A stretch of 64,000 bases of DNA from assembly GCF_027111355.2 (NCBI RefSeq), contig NZ_CP114291.2, positions 2,914,001-2,978,000 on the forward strand. The letters run 5' to 3'. The number at the start of each line of letters is the position of its first letter. The first letter of the stretch is position 1. The notes under the pieces were generated by a model. It was not told the origin of the DNA. It searched no databases and saw only the letters and a list, made by a program, of their open reading frames with translations. The stretch comes from Flavobacterium eburneipallidum (GTDB taxonomy: Bacteria; Bacteroidota; Bacteroidia; Flavobacteriales; Flavobacteriaceae). Position numbers and translations under genes: made by a program. This document shows, piece by piece, positions 48,224-57,365 of this stretch.

Positions 48224-48787
48224 ATGAAAAATTTAAAATCAATTGCATTAGCATTCGTAGCATTCGCTACCATTTCAGTAACAGCTCAAACAAAGAAAAT
48301 TGACGCAAAAACAAGTACTATCGAATGGGTAGGAAAAAAAGTAACAGGACAACACAATGGAACTGTTAACTTCAAAGACGGTTATGTAGTTTTCAAATCA
48401 AAAAAATTAGTTGGTGGAACATTTACTGTAAACATGACTTCATTAACAGCAACTGATCTTACTGGAGAATACAAAGACAAATTAGACGGTCACTTAAAAG
48501 CAGATGACTTTTTTGGAACAGCTAAATACCCAACAGCTACTTTAGTAATCAAAAAAATCGGAGCTAAATCAACAAATGTTTACACTGCTACTGCTGATTT
48601 AACTATCAAAGGAATCACTAAACCTGTAACTTTTGATTTGACTGTTGCTGGCAACACCGCAACAACAACATTCAATGTAAACAGAACAGTTTACGATATT
48701 AAATACGGTTCAAAATCATTCTTCGAAAGCATTGGAGACAAAGCAATTTCTGACGAATTCGAATTGAAAGTGACTTTGAAATTCTAA
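48224..48787 (+). CDS. YceI-family protein
   Basis: This 187-residue exported protein has a signal peptide (1-21, ending VTAQ) and a lipocalin-like YceI beta barrel (KIDAKTSTIEWVGKKVTG, HLKADDFFGTAKYP, DLTIKGITKPVTFDL). YceI proteins bind long isoprenoid or fatty chains. Its place behind marR and a quinone-type reductase suggests stress on the envelope or quinone pool, but that is inference. Confidence 0.9.
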   Translation: MKNLKSIALAFVAFATISVTAQTKKIDAKTSTIEWVGKKVTGQHNGTVNFKDGYVVFKSKKLVGGTFTVNMTSLTATDLTGEYKDKLDGHLKADDFFGTAKYPTATLVIKKIGAKSTNVYTATADLTIKGITKPVTFDLTVAGNTATTTFNVNRTVYDIKYGSKSFFESIGDKAISDEFELKVTLKF

Positions 48788-48809: not shown

Positions 48810-48840
48810 AAACCCTGATAAGAAATTGTCAGGGTTTCTT
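48810..48840 (+). terminator. rho-independent terminator of the marR operon
   Basis: AAACCCTGA pairs with TCAGGGTTT around TAAGAAATTG, followed by a short T-rich stretch. It closes the marR operon before the trp promoter. Confidence 0.75.
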
Positions 48841-48885: not shown

Positions 48886-48916
48886 TTTGAATAATCAAAT
48901 TTGATTTATATATTTG
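48886..48916 (+). promoter_or_regulatory. trp operon promoter
   Basis: TTTG (48886-48889), a 19-base gap and TATATTTG (48909-48916) match the Bacteroidota promoter consensus well. The leader-peptide ATG follows only four bases after the -7 box, so transcription should start at or beside that ATG. Confidence 0.7.
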
Positions 48917-48920
48917 TCAA

Positions 48921-48977
48921 ATGAAAACGATTTTAAACAATACTTGGTGGTGGAACAATTTACGTCAATCGTCGTGA
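48921..48977 (+). CDS. trpL: trp operon leader peptide
   Basis: This 18-codon frame reads MKTILNNTWWWNNLRQSS and contains three tandem tryptophan codons (48945-48953). Three TGG codons in so short a frame, just before an anthranilate synthase gene and an intrinsic terminator, is the classic mark of attenuation by ribosome stalling. The stop codon at 48975-48977 falls inside the strand that would form the antiterminator. The peptide itself probably has no other function. Confidence 0.85.
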   Translation: MKTILNNTWWWNNLRQSS

Positions 48978-49040
48978 ACAAAGCACCTATAGTATAAACT
49001 ATAAATATAAAAGGCTTGTCATCACGACAAGCCTTTTTCT
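48971..49040 (+). promoter_or_regulatory. trp attenuator (antiterminator/terminator pair)
   Basis: The terminator stem pairs AAAAGGCTTGTC (49009-49020) with GACAAGCCTTTT (49026-49037), loop ATCAC, then T-rich sequence. The alternative fold pairs GTCGTGA (48971-48977) with TCACGAC (49022-49028), extended by ACAAAGC (48978-48984) with GCTTGT (49014-49019). A ribosome stalled at the TGG codons leaves the first strand free and favours antitermination; one that reaches the stop codon covers it and permits termination. Confidence 0.82.
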
Positions 49041-49088: not shown

Positions 49089-50489
49089 ATGAAAACATTT
49101 ACTTTAAATACTCATTACAAGCAAATCCTTGCCGACACCATTACTCCGGTAAGCGTATATTTTAAAATTCGTGACAAATTCCCAAACAGCCTTCTTTTGG
49201 AAAGTAGCGATTATCATGGTAACGACAACAGTTTCTCTTACATCTGTTGCAACCCGATTGCTTCTATTAAAATCGAAAATGAAACTATTTTCAAAAACTT
49301 TCCTGACGGAACTACAGAAACGATTTCGATAGATTCAAAAACAGATATTCCACAAGTAATTCAGGAATTTTCAGGACAGTTCAATTCCGAGAAAAACGAT
49401 TTCAAATTCATCAATAATGGATTGTTTGGATACATTTCTTATGATGCCGTTCGTTATTTCGAAAAAGTAACCATCGCCAAAAAAGACGCAGCAACTACCA
49501 TTCCGGATGTGTATTATGCAGTCTATCAAAACATCATTGCTATTAACCATTTCAAAAATGAAGCGTATATATTCTGTCACAGTCTGGATGGAAAAAATAA
49601 TATTTCAGAAATCGAACAATTATTACAATCTAGAAATATTGCTTCTTATAAATTTACCAGAGACGGCGAAGGCAGTTCCAACTTAACCGACGAAGAATTC
49701 AAACACAATGTGGCTTTAGCCAAAAAACATTGCCACAGAGGTGATGTGTTTCAATTGGTTTTATCAAGAAGATTTACACAAGGTTTCAAAGGCGATGAAT
49801 TCAATGTTTATAGAGCATTAAGAAGTATCAACCCTTCTCCTTACCTATTCTTTTTTGATTATGGTGATTTCAAGATATTTGGTTCTTCACCAGAAGCCCA
49901 AATTATTGTCAAAAACCGCAAAGCCGAAATTCACCCAATCGCAGGAACTTTCAGAAGAACTGGCGATGACGAAAAAGATGCCGTTCTTGCCAAAAAACTA
50001 TCCGAAGACAAAAAAGAAAATAGTGAACACGTGATGTTAGTTGATTTGGCTCGAAACGATTTAAGCCGTCACGGACACGGTGTGGAAGTAGAAAAATACA
50101 GAGAAGTTCAATTTTTCTCTCACGTAATCCATTTGGTTTCTAAAGTAACAGGGCATTTACACGAAAAAGCCACAACAATGCAAGTCGTTGCCGATACCTT
50201 CCCGGCAGGAACTTTAAGCGGAGCTCCAAAACACAGAGCGATGCAATTGATAGAAGATTACGAAAAAACAAATCGTAATTTCTACGGAGGCGCTATCGGT
50301 TTTATGGATTTCGAAGGCAACTTCAATCACGCGATTATGATTCGAACTTTCTTAAGTAAGAATCACAAATTACATTCGCAAGCAGGTGCTGGAATTGTGG
50401 CAAGTTCTGACGAAGAAAGCGAAATGCAGGAAGTGTACAATAAATTATTGGCATTGAATAAAGCATTGGATTTAGCAGAAACAATTTAA
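49089..50489 (+). CDS. trpE: anthranilate synthase component I
   Basis: This 466-residue enzyme makes anthranilate from chorismate using ammonia from TrpG. LLESSDYHGNDNSF near the start is the tryptophan feedback site region; the chorismate-binding C-terminal half has GSSPEAQI, HPIAGTFRR, EHVMLVDLARNDL and FPAGTLSGAPKHRAM. The length is typical. It is the first structural gene of the operon and starts 51 nt after the attenuator. Confidence 0.96.
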   Translation: MKTFTLNTHYKQILADTITPVSVYFKIRDKFPNSLLLESSDYHGNDNSFSYICCNPIASIKIENETIFKNFPDGTTETISIDSKTDIPQVIQEFSGQFNSEKNDFKFINNGLFGYISYDAVRYFEKVTIAKKDAATTIPDVYYAVYQNIIAINHFKNEAYIFCHSLDGKNNISEIEQLLQSRNIASYKFTRDGEGSSNLTDEEFKHNVALAKKHCHRGDVFQLVLSRRFTQGFKGDEFNVYRALRSINPSPYLFFFDYGDFKIFGSSPEAQIIVKNRKAEIHPIAGTFRRTGDDEKDAVLAKKLSEDKKENSEHVMLVDLARNDLSRHGHGVEVEKYREVQFFSHVIHLVSKVTGHLHEKATTMQVVADTFPAGTLSGAPKHRAMQLIEDYEKTNRNFYGGAIGFMDFEGNFNHAIMIRTFLSKNHKLHSQAGAGIVASSDEESEMQEVYNKLLALNKALDLAETI

Positions 50490-50499
50490 AAAAGTAATC

Positions 50500-50549
50500 A
50501 GTGTTCAGACCCGAGCGAGAGCGAACTGGCGAAGCATTTTAGTGTTCAG
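50500..50549. repeat. repeated AGTGTTCAG in the trpE-trpG gap
   Basis: AGTGTTCAG occurs at 50500-50508 and 50541-50549, with a G+C-rich stretch (CCCGAGCGAGAGCGAACTGG) between that is unlike the surrounding AT-rich DNA. The 100 bp gap contains no gene. It looks like an inserted repeat of the kind seen in other gaps of this operon. Confidence 0.55.
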
Positions 50550-50589
50550 TCGCAACAGCAAGAACCTAAAAGTTTAAATAAAAAACAAA

Positions 50590-51156
50590 ATGAAAAAAAT
50601 ACTAGTCATAGACAATTACGATAGCTTCACTTACAACTTAGTGCATTATCTGGAAGATTTAGATTGTGAAGTTACCGTTTACAGAAACGATGAATTTGAT
50701 ATCGATGAAATCTCTGGTTTCGACAAAATATTACTTTCTCCTGGACCTGGAATTCCTGATGAAGCAGGTTTATTGAAAGCGGTAATTGCTAAATATGCTC
50801 CAACCAAAAGCATTCTTGGCGTTTGCCTTGGTCAACAAGCTATTGGAGAAGTTTTTGGTGGAACGCTCTCTAATTTAGATAAAGTGTATCACGGCGTTTC
50901 TTCCATGGTAAAAACATCTGTTGATGACGAACTTTTATTTGAAGGTTTAGGAAACGAATTCGAAGTAGGACGTTACCATTCTTGGGTTGTTGATGCCAAT
51001 TTACCTGATGTTTTGGAAGCCACATCATTCGACGAAAACGGACAGGTAATGTCTTTGCGTCACAAAACATTTGATGTTCGAGGTGTACAATTCCATCCAG
51101 AAAGTGTGTTGACACCAAACGGGAAGAAGATTTTAGAAAATTGGTTAAAATCGTAG
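50590..51156 (+). CDS. trpG: anthranilate synthase component II (glutamine amidotransferase)
   Basis: This 188-residue class I amidotransferase supplies ammonia to TrpE. The catalytic cysteine is in GVCLGQQAIGE and the histidine/glutamate pair in VQFHPESVLT; IDNYDSFTYNLVHYL opens the protein. Its TAG stop codon (51154-51156) lies inside the left arm of a palindromic repeat (51152-51182), so the repeat defines the end of the protein. Confidence 0.95.
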   Translation: MKKILVIDNYDSFTYNLVHYLEDLDCEVTVYRNDEFDIDEISGFDKILLSPGPGIPDEAGLLKAVIAKYAPTKSILGVCLGQQAIGEVFGGTLSNLDKVYHGVSSMVKTSVDDELLFEGLGNEFEVGRYHSWVVDANLPDVLEATSFDENGQVMSLRHKTFDVRGVQFHPESVLTPNGKKILENWLKS

Positions 51157-51182
51157 AGACGTTGTAGTGCAACGTCTCTACG
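51152..51182. repeat. palindromic repeat CGTAGAGACGTTG, copy 1
   Basis: Perfect 13-bp arms, CGTAGAGACGTTG (51152-51164) and CAACGTCTCTACG (51170-51182), surround TAGTG. The left arm supplies the trpG stop codon. A second copy with one mismatch lies at 53676-53704 between trpF and trpB. Confidence 0.9.
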
Positions 51183-51204
51183 TTGTAATCAAAATAAAAA
51201 CAAT

Positions 51205-52197
51205 ATGAAAAACATATTAAACAGGCTTATCAACCACGAACTACTTTCGAAAGAAGAAGCAAAAAACGTATTAGTCAACATTTCCAACGGAGGTTATAAT
51301 CCAAGCCAAATCGCATCCTTTCTTACCGTTTATATGATGAGAAGTATCAGCATTGATGAATTGGCAGGCTTTCGTGAAGCCTTGTTAGAATTGTGCATTC
51401 GTGTTGATTTATCAGCCTACAACACCATCGATTTATGCGGAACTGGTGGCGATGGCAAAGACACTTTTAACATTTCCACGTTGGCATCCTTTGTTTCAGC
51501 TGGAGCAGGAATAAAAGTTGCCAAACATGGTAATTACGGGGTTTCCTCTATTTCAGGCTCAAGCAATGTAATGGAAAAACTGGGAGTAAAATTCAGCAAT
51601 GACAATGACTTTCTGGAAAAATGTATTGATCAGGCGGGAATTTGCATTTTGCACGCACCGTTATTTCACCCTGCAATGAAAAACGTCGGTCCCATCCGAA
51701 AAGAATTAGGCGTAAGAACCTTTTTTAATATGCTGGGACCAATGATAAATCCATCATTTCCTAAAAACCAATTGGTAGGCGTTTTCAATTTGGAACTCGC
51801 AAGAATGTATGCGTATTTATACCAAAACACCGATATAAATTTCACCATTTTACATTCGTTAGACGGTTATGATGAAGTATCTTTGACCTGTGCAACGAAG
51901 ACCATTACAAAAAGAATGGAAGGCGTAATAAAACCCAAAGATTTTGGTGTTCGACAATTGTCACAAAGTGAAATCGAAGGCGGAAAAACCATCGAAGAAT
52001 CGGCAGCAATGTTTATGAACATCATTTCCGGAAAAGGAACTGAAGCTCAAAATAACGTGGTTTGTGCCAATGCCGCAATGGCAATTTCAACTGTAAAAGG
52101 ATGTTCACCAAAAGAAGGATTTGAATTAGCAAAAGAAAGTTTGCTTTCTGGAAAAGGACTTTTGGCTTTAAATAAATTACAAGAATTAAGTAGATAA
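51205..52197 (+). CDS. trpD: anthranilate phosphoribosyltransferase
   Basis: This 330-residue enzyme attaches phosphoribosyl to anthranilate. The family signature DLCGTGGDGKDTFNIST binds the pyrophosphate, KHGNYGVSSISGSSNVMEKLG follows, and HPAMKNVGPIRKELGVRTFFN completes the active site. It is four bases from trpC, so the two are tightly coupled. Confidence 0.95.
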   Translation: MKNILNRLINHELLSKEEAKNVLVNISNGGYNPSQIASFLTVYMMRSISIDELAGFREALLELCIRVDLSAYNTIDLCGTGGDGKDTFNISTLASFVSAGAGIKVAKHGNYGVSSISGSSNVMEKLGVKFSNDNDFLEKCIDQAGICILHAPLFHPAMKNVGPIRKELGVRTFFNMLGPMINPSFPKNQLVGVFNLELARMYAYLYQNTDINFTILHSLDGYDEVSLTCATKTITKRMEGVIKPKDFGVRQLSQSEIEGGKTIEESAAMFMNIISGKGTEAQNNVVCANAAMAISTVKGCSPKEGFELAKESLLSGKGLLALNKLQELSR

Positions 52198-52200
52198 ATA

Positions 52201-52983
52201 ATGAATATTTTAGATAGAATCATAGTTGACAAAAAACAAGAAGTAGTATTAAAGAAATCAATCATTCCGGTTTCACAATTGGAAGCCTCGGTTTTCTTTG
52301 GAAAAAAGACGATTTCTTTAAGTCAAAATTTAAGAAATAGTAACTCCGGAATTATTGCCGAACACAAACGCCGTTCGCCATCCAAAGCTGAAATTAATTA
52401 TAGTTTCACAGTTGAAGAAGTGGTAAAAGGATACGAAAGTGCTGGTGCATGTGGAATTTCAGTCCTTACAGATGGCAAATATTTTGGTGGCTCTTTAGAT
52501 GATTTATTATTAGCAAGAGCTTCGGTAAACATTCCGTTATTGAGAAAAGAATTCATTGTTGACGAATACCAAATCTTGGAAGCCAAAGCCCACGGAGCTG
52601 ATTTAATTTTATTAATCGCAGCGGTTTTAACTCGTGAAGAAATCAGATCTTTATCTGAATTTGCCAAAGGTTTAGGATTGGAAGTATTATTGGAAGTGCA
52701 TAATTTGGAAGAATTAGAAAAATCAATTATGCCTACTTTGGATATGATTGGTGTAAACAACAGAAACCTAAAAACATTCGAAGTAAGTCTGGATTTCAGT
52801 AAGGAATTAGCTGCCCAAATTCCAAATGATTTCGTGAAAGTTTCTGAAAGCGGTATTTCATCCATCGAAGCCATAAACGAATTAAAACCTTTTGGCTATA
52901 AAGGTTTTTTAATTGGTGAAAACTTTATGAAAACAGACAATGCTGGAAAAGCAGCAACGGAATTTATCTCAAAATTAATTTAA
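52201..52983 (+). CDS. trpC: indole-3-glycerol phosphate synthase
   Basis: This 260-residue (beta/alpha)8 enzyme closes the indole ring. EHKRRSPSKAEI carries the phosphate-site lysine, LRKEFIVDEYQ the second lysine, LLEVHNLEEL the glutamate, and GVNNRNLKTFEV and SESGIS complete the site. The start is three bases after the trpD stop. The gap after it holds a CTTTGTG-type repeat. Confidence 0.95.
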   Translation: MNILDRIIVDKKQEVVLKKSIIPVSQLEASVFFGKKTISLSQNLRNSNSGIIAEHKRRSPSKAEINYSFTVEEVVKGYESAGACGISVLTDGKYFGGSLDDLLLARASVNIPLLRKEFIVDEYQILEAKAHGADLILLIAAVLTREEIRSLSEFAKGLGLEVLLEVHNLEELEKSIMPTLDMIGVNNRNLKTFEVSLDFSKELAAQIPNDFVKVSESGISSIEAINELKPFGYKGFLIGENFMKTDNAGKAATEFISKLI

Positions 52984-52984
52984 A

Positions 52985-53060
52985 CACAAAGAACACGGAG
53001 TAAGCACAAAGCACACAAAGCTTTGTGAACTTTGCGCCTTCTTTGCGAACTTTGTGGTTA
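52985..53060. repeat. CTTTGTG/CTTTGCG repeat in the trpC-trpF gap
   Basis: The sequence is built of short units, ACACAAAG, GCACAAAG and ACACAAAG on the left and CTTTGTGAA, CTTTGCG, CTTTGCGAA, CTTTGTGG on the right, so the two halves are largely inverted copies. It fills the gap between trpC and trpF. Confidence 0.7.
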
Positions 53061-53072
53061 AAACAACATACT

Positions 53073-54908
53073 ATGAAACTCAAAATCTGCGGAATGAAAT
53101 ACCCCGACAATATTCTCGAAGTAGCTTCGCTTCTACCTGATTATATGGGCTTTATATTTTGGGAGAAATCAACTCGCTATTTTGATGGAATCATTCCAAC
53201 ATTACCAACATCAATTAAGAAAACGGGAGTGTTTGTAGATGAAACCGTAGCCATAATTGTGGAAAAAGTATTGAAACACGATTTACAGGCTGTTCAGTTA
53301 CACGGTCACGAATCAGTAGAATTTTGTGAAACTTTGAAAAAAAGTCTGCCAAAAGAAACTGAAATCATTAAAGTTTTCTCCATTTTAGATACCTTTGACT
53401 TTCAGGTCTTAAAACCTTTCGAATCGGTTTGTGATTATTTCCTTTTTGATACCAAAGGAAAATTACCCGGCGGAAACGGAACTACTTTCGACTGGAAAGT
53501 ATTAGAAAAATACCCTTCAACAAAACCATTTTTCCTGAGCGGAGGAATTGGAATTGAAGAAGTAGAAGCCGTAAATGAAATTTCGAAAACCAATTTACCC
53601 GTTTATGCCATTGATGTAAACAGTAAATTTGAAATAGAACCTGGATTAAAAAACATAGAATTGTGTAAAATTGCAGTAAAGACGTTGCAATGCAACGTCT
53701 CTACGCCAAATAAAACAAATAAAACAATGTCATACAACGTAAACGAAAAAGGCTATTATGGTCAGTTTGGAGGAGCTTACATTCCTGAAATGTTATATCC
53801 AAATGTAGAAGAATTGCGTCAAAAATACTTGGAAATTACTGCCCAACCTGAATTCAAGGCAGAATTTGACCAATTATTAAAAGATTATGTCGGCCGTCCG
53901 AGTCCGTTGTATTTTGCAAAAAGACTTTCTGAAAAATACAATACTAAAATCTATCTAAAAAGAGAAGATTTGAACCACACAGGAGCGCATAAAATCAATA
54001 ACACTATTGGACAGATTTTAGTTGCCAAAAAACTAGGCAAAAAACGTATTATTGCCGAAACAGGTGCAGGTCAGCACGGAGTTGCTACTGCTACCGTTTG
54101 CGCCTTAATGGGATTAGAATGTATTGTGTATATGGGCGAAATCGACATTGCACGTCAGGCACCAAACGTTGCCCGCATGAAAATGCTGGGTGCTGAAGTT
54201 CGCCCAGCACTTTCAGGTTCAAGAACATTAAAAGATGCCACTAACGAAGCCATCCGCGATTGGATCAACAATCCAGTTGACACTCATTATATCATTGGAT
54301 CAGCGATTGGACCACATCCTTATCCAGATATGGTTACCCGTTTTCAATCTGTTATTTCCGAAGAAATTAAATGGCAGTTGAAAGAAAAAGAAGGTCGTGA
54401 AAACCCTGATTATGTAGTGGCTTGTATTGGTGGTGGTAGTAATGCTGCAGGAACCTATTATCACTTTTTACACGAACCTGAAGTAGGTATCATTGCTGTT
54501 GAAGCTGCTGGAAAAGGAGTAAATTCTGGACACAGTGCAGCCACTAGTAAACTTGGAAAAGTAGGTGTTATTCATGGTTGTAAAACCTTATTGATGCAAA
54601 CCCCAGACGGTCAAATCACGGAACCATATTCAATATCGGCTGGTTTAGATTATCCTGGAGTTGGTCCCATGCACGCTCATTTAGCAGAAACAGGACGTGC
54701 CGAATTTTTCTCTGTGACCGATGACGATGCTATGCAATCGGGTCTTGAATTATCCAAACTAGAAGGGATTATTCCAGCCATCGAATCCTCGCACGCATTA
54801 GCAATTTTTAAAGAAAAAAAATTCAAAACAACCGATATTGTTGTAATCAGCCTTTCGGGTCGTGGTGACAAAGATTTGAATAATTACATAGAATATTTTA
54901 AAATATAA
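53073..54908 (+). CDS. trpF: phosphoribosylanthranilate isomerase, in one frame with TrpB
   Basis: From ATG 53073 the frame encodes Trp[55 protein letters not shown] and FFLSGGIG are intact. TrpF homologues end about residue 200, but here no stop follows IELCKIA. The frame passes through a palindromic repeat ([10 protein letters not shown], 53676-53704) and PNKTNKT into the trpB start at 53727, giving a continuous 611-residue frame. Either a TrpF-TrpB fusion is made, or trpB also starts internally. A GTG at 53025 inside the upstream repeat is an unlikely start. TrpF catalyses the Amadori step of tryptophan synthesis. Confidence 0.85.
53676..53704. repeat. palindromic repeat, copy 2, at the trpF/trpB junction
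   Basis: GTAAAGACGTTGCA (53676-53689) pairs with TGCAACGTCTCTAC (53691-53704) with one mismatch around a single A. The sequence is the same element as at 51152-51182. In the trpF frame it is read without a stop codon. Confidence 0.9.
53727..54908 (+). CDS. trpB: tryptophan synthase beta subunit
   Basis: From ATG 53727 the frame gives a normal 393-residue TrpB that joins indole with serine. [14 protein letters not shown] opens the protein, [14 protein letters not shown] holds the pyridoxal-phosphate lysine, [12 protein letters not shown] and [14 protein letters not shown] bind the cofactor phosphate, and SLSGRGDKD closes it. The start codon lies in the same frame as trpF with no stop between them, so the protein could be produced alone by internal initiation or as the C-terminal part of a TrpF-TrpB fusion. 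Confidence 0.92.
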
Positions 54909-55007
54909 TTTATACGTTTTTGCTTTTTTAAAGCCTTTGATTACACCTCTGGTATTTCAAAAAAATCCAATAACGTAAAATAAGAATCATTAAAACCCTG
55001 CAAAAAA

Positions 55008-55322
55008 ATGGAAAATTTATTCGCATACGGAACTTTAAAAGACAAACGCATTCAGGAGACTGTATTTGGAAAAGTCCTGACAGGAACTCCCGATTCAGTA
55101 ACTGGTTTTGTAACTAAAGAAATCAAAATTGAAGAAGAATTTGGAGTAACTCCTTATCCTATTATTGTAGAAACCAAAAATCCAGAAGATGTAGTTACTG
55201 GAATGCTTTATCAATTGACAGAGTTTCAACTCCAACAAGCTGATACTTACGAGGGTATTCATTACAAACGCATTCAAGTGCAATTGGAATCGAATGAGAT
55301 TGCTTGGACGTATTTGAGATAA
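55008..55322 (+). CDS. gamma-glutamylcyclotransferase-like (AIG2) protein in the trp operon
   Basis: This 104-residue protein has the AIG2/GGCT fold: LFAYGTLKDKRIQ is the substrate-binding YGTL loop, and a glutamate in ADTYEGIHYKR fits the catalytic acid position. Such enzymes release 5-oxoproline from gamma-glutamyl compounds. It sits between trpB and trpA, 99 bp after trpB and followed by a repeat; nothing links it to tryptophan synthesis, so it may simply ride along in the operon. Confidence 0.8.
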   Translation: MENLFAYGTLKDKRIQETVFGKVLTGTPDSVTGFVTKEIKIEEEFGVTPYPIIVETKNPEDVVTGMLYQLTEFQLQQADTYEGIHYKRIQVQLESNEIAWTYLR

Positions 55323-55393
55323 AAATTGAAAGATTGAAGAATTAAAAGATTGAAAAATTATTGATATACAAATCATTAAATCTTTCAATTTTT
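55321..55393. repeat. inverted repeat before trpA
   Basis: AAAAATTGAAAGATT (55321-55335) pairs perfectly with AATCTTTCAATTTTT (55379-55393). Between and after them are further AAAGATTGAA and AATCATTAAAT units. It fills the gap between the GGCT-like gene and trpA, and its left arm includes the last two bases of the GGCT-like stop codon. Confidence 0.75.
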
Positions 55394-55411
55394 AAATCAT
55401 TAAATAAAAAA

Positions 55412-56173
55412 ATGAACAGAATAAATCAAAAGTTACAAGAAAACAAAAAGATACTTTCCATCTATTTTTCGGCGGGATATCCGAGTTTAAACGATACCGT
55501 ACAAATCATTCAGGATTTAGAAAAAAATGGCGTTGATATGATAGAAATCGGATTACCTTTCAGTGATCCATTGGCTGATGGTCCAACCATTCAAGCTAGT
55601 TCTACCACCGCATTGCAAAACGGAATGACTACTCAAGTTTTGTTTGATCAACTCAAAGACATTCGAAAAAGCGTAACCATTCCATTAGTGATTATGGGCT
55701 ATTTCAATCCTATGTTGCAATATGGTGTAGAAGCTTTTTGTCAAAAATGTGCCGAGATTGGCATCGATGGTTTAATCATTCCTGACCTACCTGTGGATGT
55801 GTATGCTTATGAATACAAAGCCACTTTCGACAAATATGGCCTTAAAAACATCTTCCTTATTACACCACAAACTTCAGAAGAGCGTATTCGTTTTATAGAC
55901 AGCGTTTCGGATGGATTCATTTATATGGTGAGTTCAGCAAGTGTTACAGGATCAAGTGCTGGTTTTGGAAACACACAAGAAACTTATTTCAAACGCATCG
56001 CCGATATGAATCTGAAAAACCCTCAAATTATTGGTTTTGGAATTAATAATGCGGAGACTTTTAACCAAGCGACACAATTTGCCAAAGGTGCTATTATTGG
56101 TAGTGCTTTCATCACTCATTTGAAAGAAAACGGAAGCGGAAAAATTGAAAGCTTTGTGAAAGGAATTCGATAA
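55412..56173 (+). CDS. trpA: tryptophan synthase alpha subunit
   Basis: This 253-residue (beta/alpha)8 enzyme splits indole-glycerol phosphate and passes indole to TrpB. The catalytic glutamate is in DMIEIGLPFSDPLADGP with the second acid a little later, and YMVSSASVTGSS binds the phosphate. I place the start at 55412 (MNRINQK), because the longer frame from 55361 begins inside the upstream repeat. It is the last gene of the operon. Confidence 0.94.
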   Translation: MNRINQKLQENKKILSIYFSAGYPSLNDTVQIIQDLEKNGVDMIEIGLPFSDPLADGPTIQASSTTALQNGMTTQVLFDQLKDIRKSVTIPLVIMGYFNPMLQYGVEAFCQKCAEIGIDGLIIPDLPVDVYAYEYKATFDKYGLKNIFLITPQTSEERIRFIDSVSDGFIYMVSSASVTGSSAGFGNTQETYFKRIADMNLKNPQIIGFGINNAETFNQATQFAKGAIIGSAFITHLKENGSGKIESFVKGIR

Positions 56174-56426: not shown

Positions 56427-57365
56427 ATGAAAAAATCAATTTCTCTAATTCTAATAGTGGTAATTTCCACAATTTCTTATGCTCAAGTAAAAACGGTTCA
56501 TTGGCGTATAGACAACCTTACTCAAATTGGCGGAAATGCGGTAACTGTAAGCGGAAATCCTAAAGTGATTCAAACAGATCTGGGAAATGCCATTGAATTT
56601 GACGGAATAAAAGATGGTCTTCTGGTAAACAATAATCCGATGAACGAAGCCACTGAATTTACTATTGAAATTATTTTAAAACCCTATTCAGGCGGAGCAG
56701 TGGAACAGCGTTATCTTCATTTTCAACAAGACGAGAATAATAGAATACTGGCAGAACTGCGCAACAATAATAATTTGAATTGGAGTCTGGACACCTTTAT
56801 TAAATCTGGAGCTTCTAATCAAACTTTATTGGATTATTCTTTAGTACACAGTCTGAATAATTGGGTTCATGTAGCCTTGACTTACAAAAATGGCGTAATG
56901 ACAAATTATGTAAATGGAGTTCAGGAGTTAATAGGATCCGTTGCTTATCAGGTGGTAAATTCTGGTCAAACCTCAATAGGTGTCCGAATGAATCAAGTAG
57001 CGTGGTTCAAGGGAGCTATTCATTCTGTAAAAATTACCCACGCAGCACTTAATCCTGCAAATTTCATAAAAACGACCGACTATCTAGCCATTCAAAATTT
57101 TAAAAAACAACAATTATCAACTCAAATTTCGCCTAATCCGGTTACTGCTTCTGCTATTTTAAAATACCAATTAGACGAGTCATCAAATATTTCAATCAAA
57201 CTCTTCACTTCTGAAGGAAAAGAAATAGCTACCTTTTTTGATGGATATAAAAATGCGGGAACTCATGAATTAGAAATTAATCGTGCTAATTTGGATGCCA
57301 ATATATACTTTGTAGTAATAAGTTCTGGAAAATTGAAATCTACTCAAAAACTTATAATTAAATAA
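56427..57365 (+). CDS. secreted LamG-domain protein with T9SS tail
   Basis: This 312-residue protein has a signal peptide (1-19, ending SYAQ), a concanavalin/LamG-type beta sandwich (about 25-215: NAIEFDGIKDGLLV, EFTIEIILKPYSGG, NNWVHVALTYKNGVMTNYVNG) and a type IX sorting domain at the end (ISPNPVTASAILK ... STQKLIIK). It is probably displayed on the surface and binds a carbohydrate; no catalytic residues are evident. It stands alone after the trp operon. Confidence 0.85.
   Translation: MKKSISLILIVVISTISYAQVKTVHWRIDNLTQIGGNAVTVSGNPKVIQTDLGNAIEFDGIKDGLLVNNNPMNEATEFTIEIILKPYSGGAVEQRYLHFQQDENNRILAELRNNNNLNWSLDTFIKSGASNQTLLDYSLVHSLNNWVHVALTYKNGVMTNYVNGVQELIGSVAYQVVNSGQTSIGVRMNQVAWFKGAIHSVKITHAALNPANFIKTTDYLAIQNFKKQQLSTQISPNPVTASAILKYQLDESSNISIKLFTSEGKEIATFFDGYKNAGTHELEINRANLDANIYFVVISSGKLKSTQKLIIK

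Follow-up and report, generated by a model that had tools for sequence, protein, structure and literature searches.

The trpL leader of Escherichia coli exemplifies ribosome-mediated attenuation, a short frame with Trp codons being combined with alternative antiterminator and terminator structures. Elsewhere, trp genes are regulated by T-boxes and TRAP, and TnaC-type leader peptides sense free tryptophan inside the ribosome. In other phyla, lysine genes are controlled by the lysine riboswitch.

A Trp attenuator whose RNA begins with the trpL ATG has been described in an alphaproteobacterium, Sinorhizobium meliloti (trpL/rnTrpL; PMC7298713), where trans functions are also known; a start of this kind is predicted below for a flavobacterial leader. 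In Bacteroidota, the Bacteroid-trp family (RF01692) was published in 2010 by Weinberg et al. (PMC2864571) and appears once in the main text of that paper, in a table, as probable cis-regulatory. According to PMC6414381, the element is conserved upstream of the trp operon of F. psychrophilum. On account of this family and this statement, attenuation in Bacteroidota can be said to have been proposed already. In addition, PMC9723704 refers to strong clues, in a supplementary table, for leader-peptide attenuation ahead of amino-acid biosynthesis operons.

A Bacteroid-trp leader precedes the trp genes

The leader described here lies in a 64-kb stretch of the Flavobacterium eburneipallidum chromosome, hereafter the window. 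A match to RF01692 spans positions 48901..49020 (+), upstream of the tryptophan biosynthesis gene trpE, which starts at 49089; it covers the full model (1-131), scores 70 bits against a gathering cut-off of 49 and is the sole match genome-wide at E 0.001. The element is a further member of this catalogued family, and thus a known kind of attenuator, with which it shares the basic layout of a Bacteroidota Trp leader ahead of trp genes. The Rfam model includes neither the leaderless form nor the variant with Lys codons presented below. The first-pass annotation of the window had singled the site out as a tryptophan attenuator in a phylum where transcription-translation coupling is less studied. 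Its parts are confirmed, but RF01692 already covers the element and it is not new. Because the model stops in the 5' arm of the terminator, it does not include the complete terminator or the antiterminator pair. RF01692 matches are present in 141 of 199 genomes of the family (58 having no match under strict filters), in 78 of 121 of the genus and in 42 of 395 drawn from the phylum.

The trp genes follow on the plus strand in the order trpE-G-D-C-(F-B)-A (49089-56173). The first structural gene, trpE (49089..50489), has trpE_most as its best match, with 440 bits under a cut-off of 517.7; trpG (50590..51156), trpD (51205..52197), trpC (52201..52983) and trpA (55412..56173, from a query that began at 55409) were assigned by NCBIfam. 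The trpF-trpB segment is a single open frame of 627 aa (53025..54908) that matches the bifunctional PRK13803.1 model over nearly its entire length (771 bits, just under the cut-off of 819). A 104-aa frame without NCBIfam match is found ahead of trpA (55008-55322), and just 3' of the trp genes lies a non-trp gene whose protein has a T9SS sorting domain (56427-57365). On the upstream side, the neighbour is a YceI-like gene (48224-48787; best match under its cut-off), 3' of which a terminator-like hairpin of 12 pairs, 4 of them GC (48810..48837, +), would insulate the trp unit.

Given that T-boxes and TRAP control trp genes in other bacteria, one might suspect a leader that responds to a ligand or a protein (T-box, TRAP-like or riboswitch) rather than to the ribosome. 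However, only RF01692 and a tRNA reach Rfam cut-offs in the window, with no T-box match at this level, and such a leader would have no role for the conserved frame, for its Trp codons or for their fixed distance to the antiterminator. We regard this as the least likely of the alternatives considered, and retain a leader that senses the ribosome.

Components of the leader

The leader peptide ORF (MKTILNNTWWWNNLRQSS) occupies positions 48921..48977 (+) and ends with a TGA at 48975-48977. Three tandem TGG codons at 48945..48953 (+), recognised from the sequence and from relatives, form the putative sensor. The 5' strand of the antiterminator (48971..48984, +), equally apparent in the sequence and in relatives, includes the core GTCGTGA (48971-48977), which overlaps the stop codon and is perfectly complementary to TCACGAC at 49022-49028; the helix is extended by pairing of 48978-48984 with 49014-49019. 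Its 3' strand (49014..49028, +) consists of the 5' arm of the terminator, the loop and the first bases of the 3' arm. The intrinsic terminator, detected by a terminator scan and by hairpin search in relatives, occupies 49009..49038 (+): the hairpin AAAAGGCTTGTC-atcac-GACAAGCCTTTT forms 12 pairs between 49009 and 49037, and the T run reaches 49038. All three elements put forward in the first pass, namely the frame with its tandem Trp codons, the terminator and the alternative pairing with its extension, hold up on direct reading at the same positions. That annotation did not include the assignment to RF01692, the location of the promoter or the competing hairpin given below.

A scan of 1.1 kb gave four terminator-like sites where 0.4 would be expected, two of them being the leader hairpin (one per strand) and one the terminator of the upstream gene. 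Two copies of the sequence TGGTGGTGG are present in the 64 kb, where 0.08 would be expected, the second one lying within the trpF-trpB ORF (54428-54436). Folding of the leader region beats 200 of 200 shuffles (z -4.75). The minimum-energy fold also contains a possible protector hairpin (48940..48995, +), in which 48940-48964 pair with 48973-48995 and GGUG of the Trp codons is matched to CACC at 48984-48987. Pairing of the sensor with the downstream segment is weakly better than in shuffled sequences in the window, 45 of 1000 shuffles being equally low, and it falls in the lowest 5% of shuffles for 26 of 174 leaders (7 of the 181 leaders of the conservation set were dropped for a missing motif).

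The leader would work like E. coli trpL, from which it differs in having three tandem Trp codons, a stop codon inside the antiterminator strand and a 5' end predicted to coincide with the ATG.

A putative leaderless start

According to PMC6847099, this phylum is without Shine-Dalgarno sequences, in contrast to the E. coli trp leader. The -7 box of a Bacteroidota sigma-A promoter, TATATTTG, is found at 48909..48916 (+); it conforms to the consensus TAnnTTTG, whose reported position in F. psychrophilum is -12 to -5 (PMC9723704). A -33-like TTG lies 19 nt ahead of the box (48887..48889, +), a motif described as far less evident than the others (PMC6847099). Of 434 candidate promoters in F. johnsoniae, the 241 that were taken as probable are those with a box-to-start distance of 4 or 5 nt (PMC6847099). 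Because the box in the window ends 4 nt before the leader ATG, transcription is predicted to start at the A of this codon (48921..48921, +), or one base later, and the leader mRNA is probably leaderless. For comparison, a strict box within 60 nt is present for 9 of the 43 window ORFs that reach 120 aa, always at a distance of 13 nt or more. No leaderless Bacteroid-trp start was found in the literature searched.

Among 88 leaders of the genus, the distance from box to ATG is 4 nt in 12, 7 nt in 1 and 15-24 nt in 71, with no strict box in 4. Outside the genus, where the classes are less clean, the distance in the 87 leaders with one clear box is 4-6 nt in 18, of which 15 have 5 nt, and 7-12 nt in 16. 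A TTG at the 19-nt spacer is present in 24 of the 30 leaders with short spacing, in 12 of the 17 with intermediate and in 45 of the 124 with long spacing. As read from a weakly supported tree of partial proteins, short spacing implies at least 7 state changes within the genus (mean with shuffled labels, 11.4), where it is thus partly clustered, and 5 outside the genus.

The tree was built from partial first-gene proteins, and 15 of its 176 inner branches are starred. A TrpE motif is present in 169 of the 179 rows; L033 and L064, which have no long frame, were excluded. The long-branch rows L091, L096, L114, L182 and L183 may not be trpE, L182 being trpB. For 8 of the 179 rows there is no single clear box from which to derive a spacing.

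The prevalence of the 15-24 nt class in the genus could be taken to mean that the attenuator is correctly identified while its mRNA is not leaderless, transcription starting farther upstream from another promoter and translation being initiated in the usual, leadered manner. Other promoter-like sites do occur upstream, as scored with a sigma-70 pattern that is not meant for this phylum, and leaderless mRNAs make up 5.5% of the 890 mapped in F. psychrophilum (PMC9723704). Yet the box located 4 nt ahead of the leader ATG is the sole TAnnTTTG within 70 nt of it in the window and has its TTG at the 19-nt distance, and the exact 4-nt spacing recurs on several branches of the genus (the 7 state changes above, with the weak support of the tree). 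Altogether, we judge a leadered start unlikely and favour a transcription start at the leader ATG.

Conservation of the switch in relatives

The set used to assess conservation comprises 181 distinct Trp leaders, two duplicates having been removed beforehand. Loci were taken from RF01692-positive genomes, 90 of 141 in the family (window included) and 73 of 78 in the genus, with genus genomes G593, G644, G655, G664 and G679 left out; L184 and L185 were not caught by the Trp-leader filter. The first-pass annotation had named relatives without the Trp codons, or without the two pairings, as an outcome that would speak against it. Instead, the leaders have WWW in 178 of 181 cases and WW in the remaining 3, UCGUGA 3' of the Trp codons in 175 of 181, and a terminator hairpin, as recovered by hairpin search, in 181 of 181. 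By pattern, GGCYUGUC of the terminator 5' arm is present in 178, with TCACG thereafter in 169; UCGUGA and TCACG occur together in 165.

In all 175 leaders having UCGUGA, this motif follows the last Trp codon by 17-21 nt, and in 151 of them by 18 nt. The position of the stop codon is less regular. It lies within the antiterminator strand in the window, as originally noted, and inside UCGUGA in 127 of 175 leaders; in the 48 others it is found before or after the motif, either 3 to 11 nt ahead (27) or at least 7 nt past its first base (21), so it is not the constant part. What is conserved is thus the distance from sensor to antiterminator, the stop wandering within the ribosome's reach.

Residues of the peptide outside NTWWW vary among leaders. 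This variation bears on the suggestion that the terminated leader RNA, or the peptide, also acts in trans in the manner of rnTrpL/peTrpL from S. meliloti, whose trpL RNA begins at its ATG and has trans functions (PMC7298713): with a peptide that is not well conserved outside NTWWW, we find an additional role of this kind very improbable, and continue with a leader acting in cis.

In the terminator, 7 of the 8 inner pairs counted are paired in all 181 Trp leaders and in the 18 Lys leaders described below; the eighth is paired in 180 of 181 Trp and 18 of 18 Lys leaders. Terminator pairs show changes on both sides, in hairpins that had been picked for good pairing. Within the family, covariation as a test of the helices was set aside: it is slight, and the pair counts say little, the terminator and the antiterminator core being nearly invariant. 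Likewise, the base 3' of UCGUGA shows no clear co-variation with the loop base in the 181 leaders.

Of 25 distant or low-scoring loci, which are not mutually independent, 22 were analysed; the set does not include L187, for which a wrong frame had been chosen, L192, which was truncated, or L197, in which the script detected no terminator. In 20 of the 22 loci, the strongest helix joining the post-Trp segment to the terminator has its start 17-22 nt past the last Trp codon, against 1.9 expected from shuffles; in 20 of 22, the best helix at this position ranks in the top 5% of 300 shuffles. Exceptions are L202, from the same order, with a pairing 11 nt past the Trp codons, and L096, with its best helix at 29 nt and a weaker one at 21. 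In several loci both partners have changed and still match: UUGUGAG:CUCACAA in L198, ACCGUGAGU:ACUUACGGU in L200, UUCGG:CCGAA in L194, and GGCAGCCU:GGGUUGCC in L203 and L204. The compensatory changes that the first pass proposed to look for in both helices are thus seen for the antiterminator in distant relatives and, as changes on both sides, for the terminator, but they are slight within the family. As judged from these comparisons, an antiterminator that excludes the terminator is preserved in relatives.

Lysine codons on the same backbone

A second, sub-threshold RF01692 match (46 bits) in one genome of the genus provided the lead to a variant of the leader. At this locus, L184, the leader MNTWIIKKGKKQYLRRTS lies upstream of genes best matching aspartokinase and diaminopimelate decarboxylase. 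A covariance model (R1), made from 56 Trp leaders and beginning 3' of the Trp codons, was used to search the own genome and the family, genus and phylum sets. Matches not given by RF01692 included 12 more Lys leaders, plus additional Trp leaders before trpE; a search by LysC proteins contributed 5 further Lys leaders and one duplicate. The 18 distinct Lys leaders before lysC (L184, L211, L213, L230-L237, L272, L273, L275, L277, L278, L280 and L352; L184 and L280 nearly identical) carry KKGKK-like codon runs in place of the Trp codons. In 18 of 18, the last Lys codon is 18 nt from UCGUGA and the stop begins 3 nt into this motif. The next gene starts with the aspartokinase motif KFGG in the first 13, at whose loci no Rfam family scores above its cut-off; the remaining 5 come from the LysC search.

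In the LysC-protein search, 6 of 79 usable lysC loci, drawn from the best 80 of at least 585 relatives, have a Lys-rich frame and UCGUGA within 420 nt upstream (Paenimyroides 2, Chryseobacterium 3, Flavobacterium 1), while one or both are missing from the remaining 73. The lysine riboswitch (RF00168) was found in 0 of 149 family genomes at E 0.001, with 4 of 14 control genomes positive under the same strict filters. Where other phyla use this riboswitch, the lysC leaders presented here have Lys codons on the Bacteroid-trp backbone instead.

The two forms also differ in the segment opposite the sensor codons. Lys sensors pair with their own downstream segments at a mean of -6.6 kcal/mol, against -4.1 with the segments of Trp leaders; for Trp sensors the values are -8.0 with their own and -5.0 with those of Lys leaders. 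Shuffling the own segments gave -3.5 (Lys) and -6.0 (Trp) kcal/mol, and exchanging partners within each group -5.6 (Lys) and -7.8 (Trp). These computed energies suggest that a protector helix changed together with the sensor codons, the effect being modest in single leaders.

Since the Trp and Lys forms are closely alike outside the codons, we infer their common descent; and since the exchange of Trp and Lys codons keeps the backbone, nature thereby provides strong evidence for the codons as the sensor. This has a bearing on whether the WWW peptide might, in the manner of TnaC, sense free tryptophan within the ribosome rather than charged tRNA. The sign of the response would fit, as a ribosome held at the stop by free tryptophan would mask the antiterminator too. 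Against this, the residues outside NTWWW are variable, the stop codon moves, and the codon swap before lysC preserves the other parts and the spacing, as expected from codon sensing. A free-tryptophan sensor is, in our view, more improbable still than an action in trans, and codon sensing is the reading we adopt.

No leader-peptide attenuator with Lys codons in Bacteroidota was found in the literature, as far as titles and the opening parts of abstracts go; the lysine case may already be covered by the supplement of PMC9723704 or in a paper of Lopatovskaya, Seliverstov and Lyubetsky. Only Trp and Lys leaders, and none for other amino acids, were present among the R1 loci fetched, which for matches of the genus at E of about 0.001 or weaker were L238 and L239 only, and for the family were those listed down to about 2e-5. 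L238 and L239, both weak matches, resemble ordinary terminators and were discarded. No second copy was found in the own genome: of the 3 R1 matches at E up to 1, two are the trp site, read on either strand, and the third is a terminator 3' of an S1-like gene (named by eye). Inspection by eye revealed no Lys cassette at its aspartokinase genes (L240-L242).

Other loci deserve mention. In two genomes of the genus that carry a Lys leader before lysC, a Trp leader precedes trpB (L182, G647) or a trpB-like frame, as named by eye (L185, G635). Similar Lys-rich short frames, such as MTHFFTYKKLYKRNKRS, lie upstream of lysC in Labilibaculum and Marinifilum (L324, L328, L334, L340), and are possibly a separate lysine leader; in L328 and L340 the frame is accompanied by a terminator-like hairpin, without UCGUGA. 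In Sphingobacterium or near relatives (L291, L296, L300, L306, L310), a common strong terminator-like hairpin, GCGGCACAAA..., is found shortly before lysC, again without UCGUGA. In the own genome, a 33-aa frame rich in Thr codons (MAHNNTTYQSSITAPSRVASVVTATSTTITTTL; L240, just before C1:3051522) lies upstream of an 816-aa aspartokinase-like frame and looks like a threonine leader peptide of different layout.

Ribosome position and choice of structure

We consider it very probable, from the sequence data as a whole, that the window leader is a ribosome-mediated transcription attenuator sensing charged tRNA-Trp. RNA polymerase would start at this ATG, or about one base from it, and a ribosome would load on the 5' AUG. 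When Trp-tRNA is scarce, the ribosome would stall on the three Trp codons, its 3' edge, by the usual footprint, falling short of 48971; this would leave 48971-48984 free to pair with 49014-49028 once the latter is made, so that the terminator would be blocked and the trp genes transcribed. When Trp-tRNA is ample, the ribosome would reach the stop codon and cover the antiterminator strand, allowing the terminator (49009-49037) to form. If no ribosome is present, the antiterminator strand may be partly masked by the hairpin containing the Trp codons. The start site, ribosome stalling and altered readthrough are what we infer here; the parts, their conservation, the spacing and the Trp/Lys swap rest on sequence and comparison.

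Occlusion was evaluated with a folding model using assumed ribosome footprints, in 173 leaders (8 of 181 dropped for a missing motif). With a ribosome on any Trp codon, the antiterminator core forms before the 3' arm of the terminator is made in 170 of 173 leaders; it does so in 1 of 173 when a ribosome occupies the stop codon, a result largely set by the assumed footprint, and in 83 of 173 without ribosome. For the 18 Lys leaders, the corresponding numbers are 18 for a ribosome occupying the Lys codons, 0 for one at the stop and 8 without ribosome. The informative part is that, in this model, the geometry fits nearly everywhere. In full-length folding the terminator is favoured in every ribosome state (medians), and the switch therefore depends on the antiterminator forming first. 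In the window RNA the antiterminator also forms before the 3' arm is made when no ribosome is present (0.92), and ribosome-free termination is therefore not clearly explained.

Discussion

Taken jointly, the data incline us, with some reserve, to a modular view of Bacteroid-trp. In this view, the element would be a Flavobacteriales backbone in which Trp and Lys codons are exchanged and the rest (the 18-nt spacing, the antiterminator, the position of the stop and the terminator) stays fixed; the Lys form would stand before lysC, with lysA as the next gene in the single operon examined; and the Trp form would have become leaderless repeatedly, through placement of the -7 box 4 or 5 nt ahead of the ATG.

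If this is true, one attenuator serves two modes of translation initiation in sister species, and lysine control is exerted in bacteria that lack the lysine riboswitch. The replacement of Trp by Lys codons before lysC amounts to a natural experiment that separates the sensor from the switch. Because an attenuator needs a ribosome close behind the polymerase, the leaderless form poses the question of transcription-translation coupling in a phylum without Shine-Dalgarno initiation. The Lys leaders, for their part, suggest how lysine synthesis is controlled where no lysine riboswitch was found.
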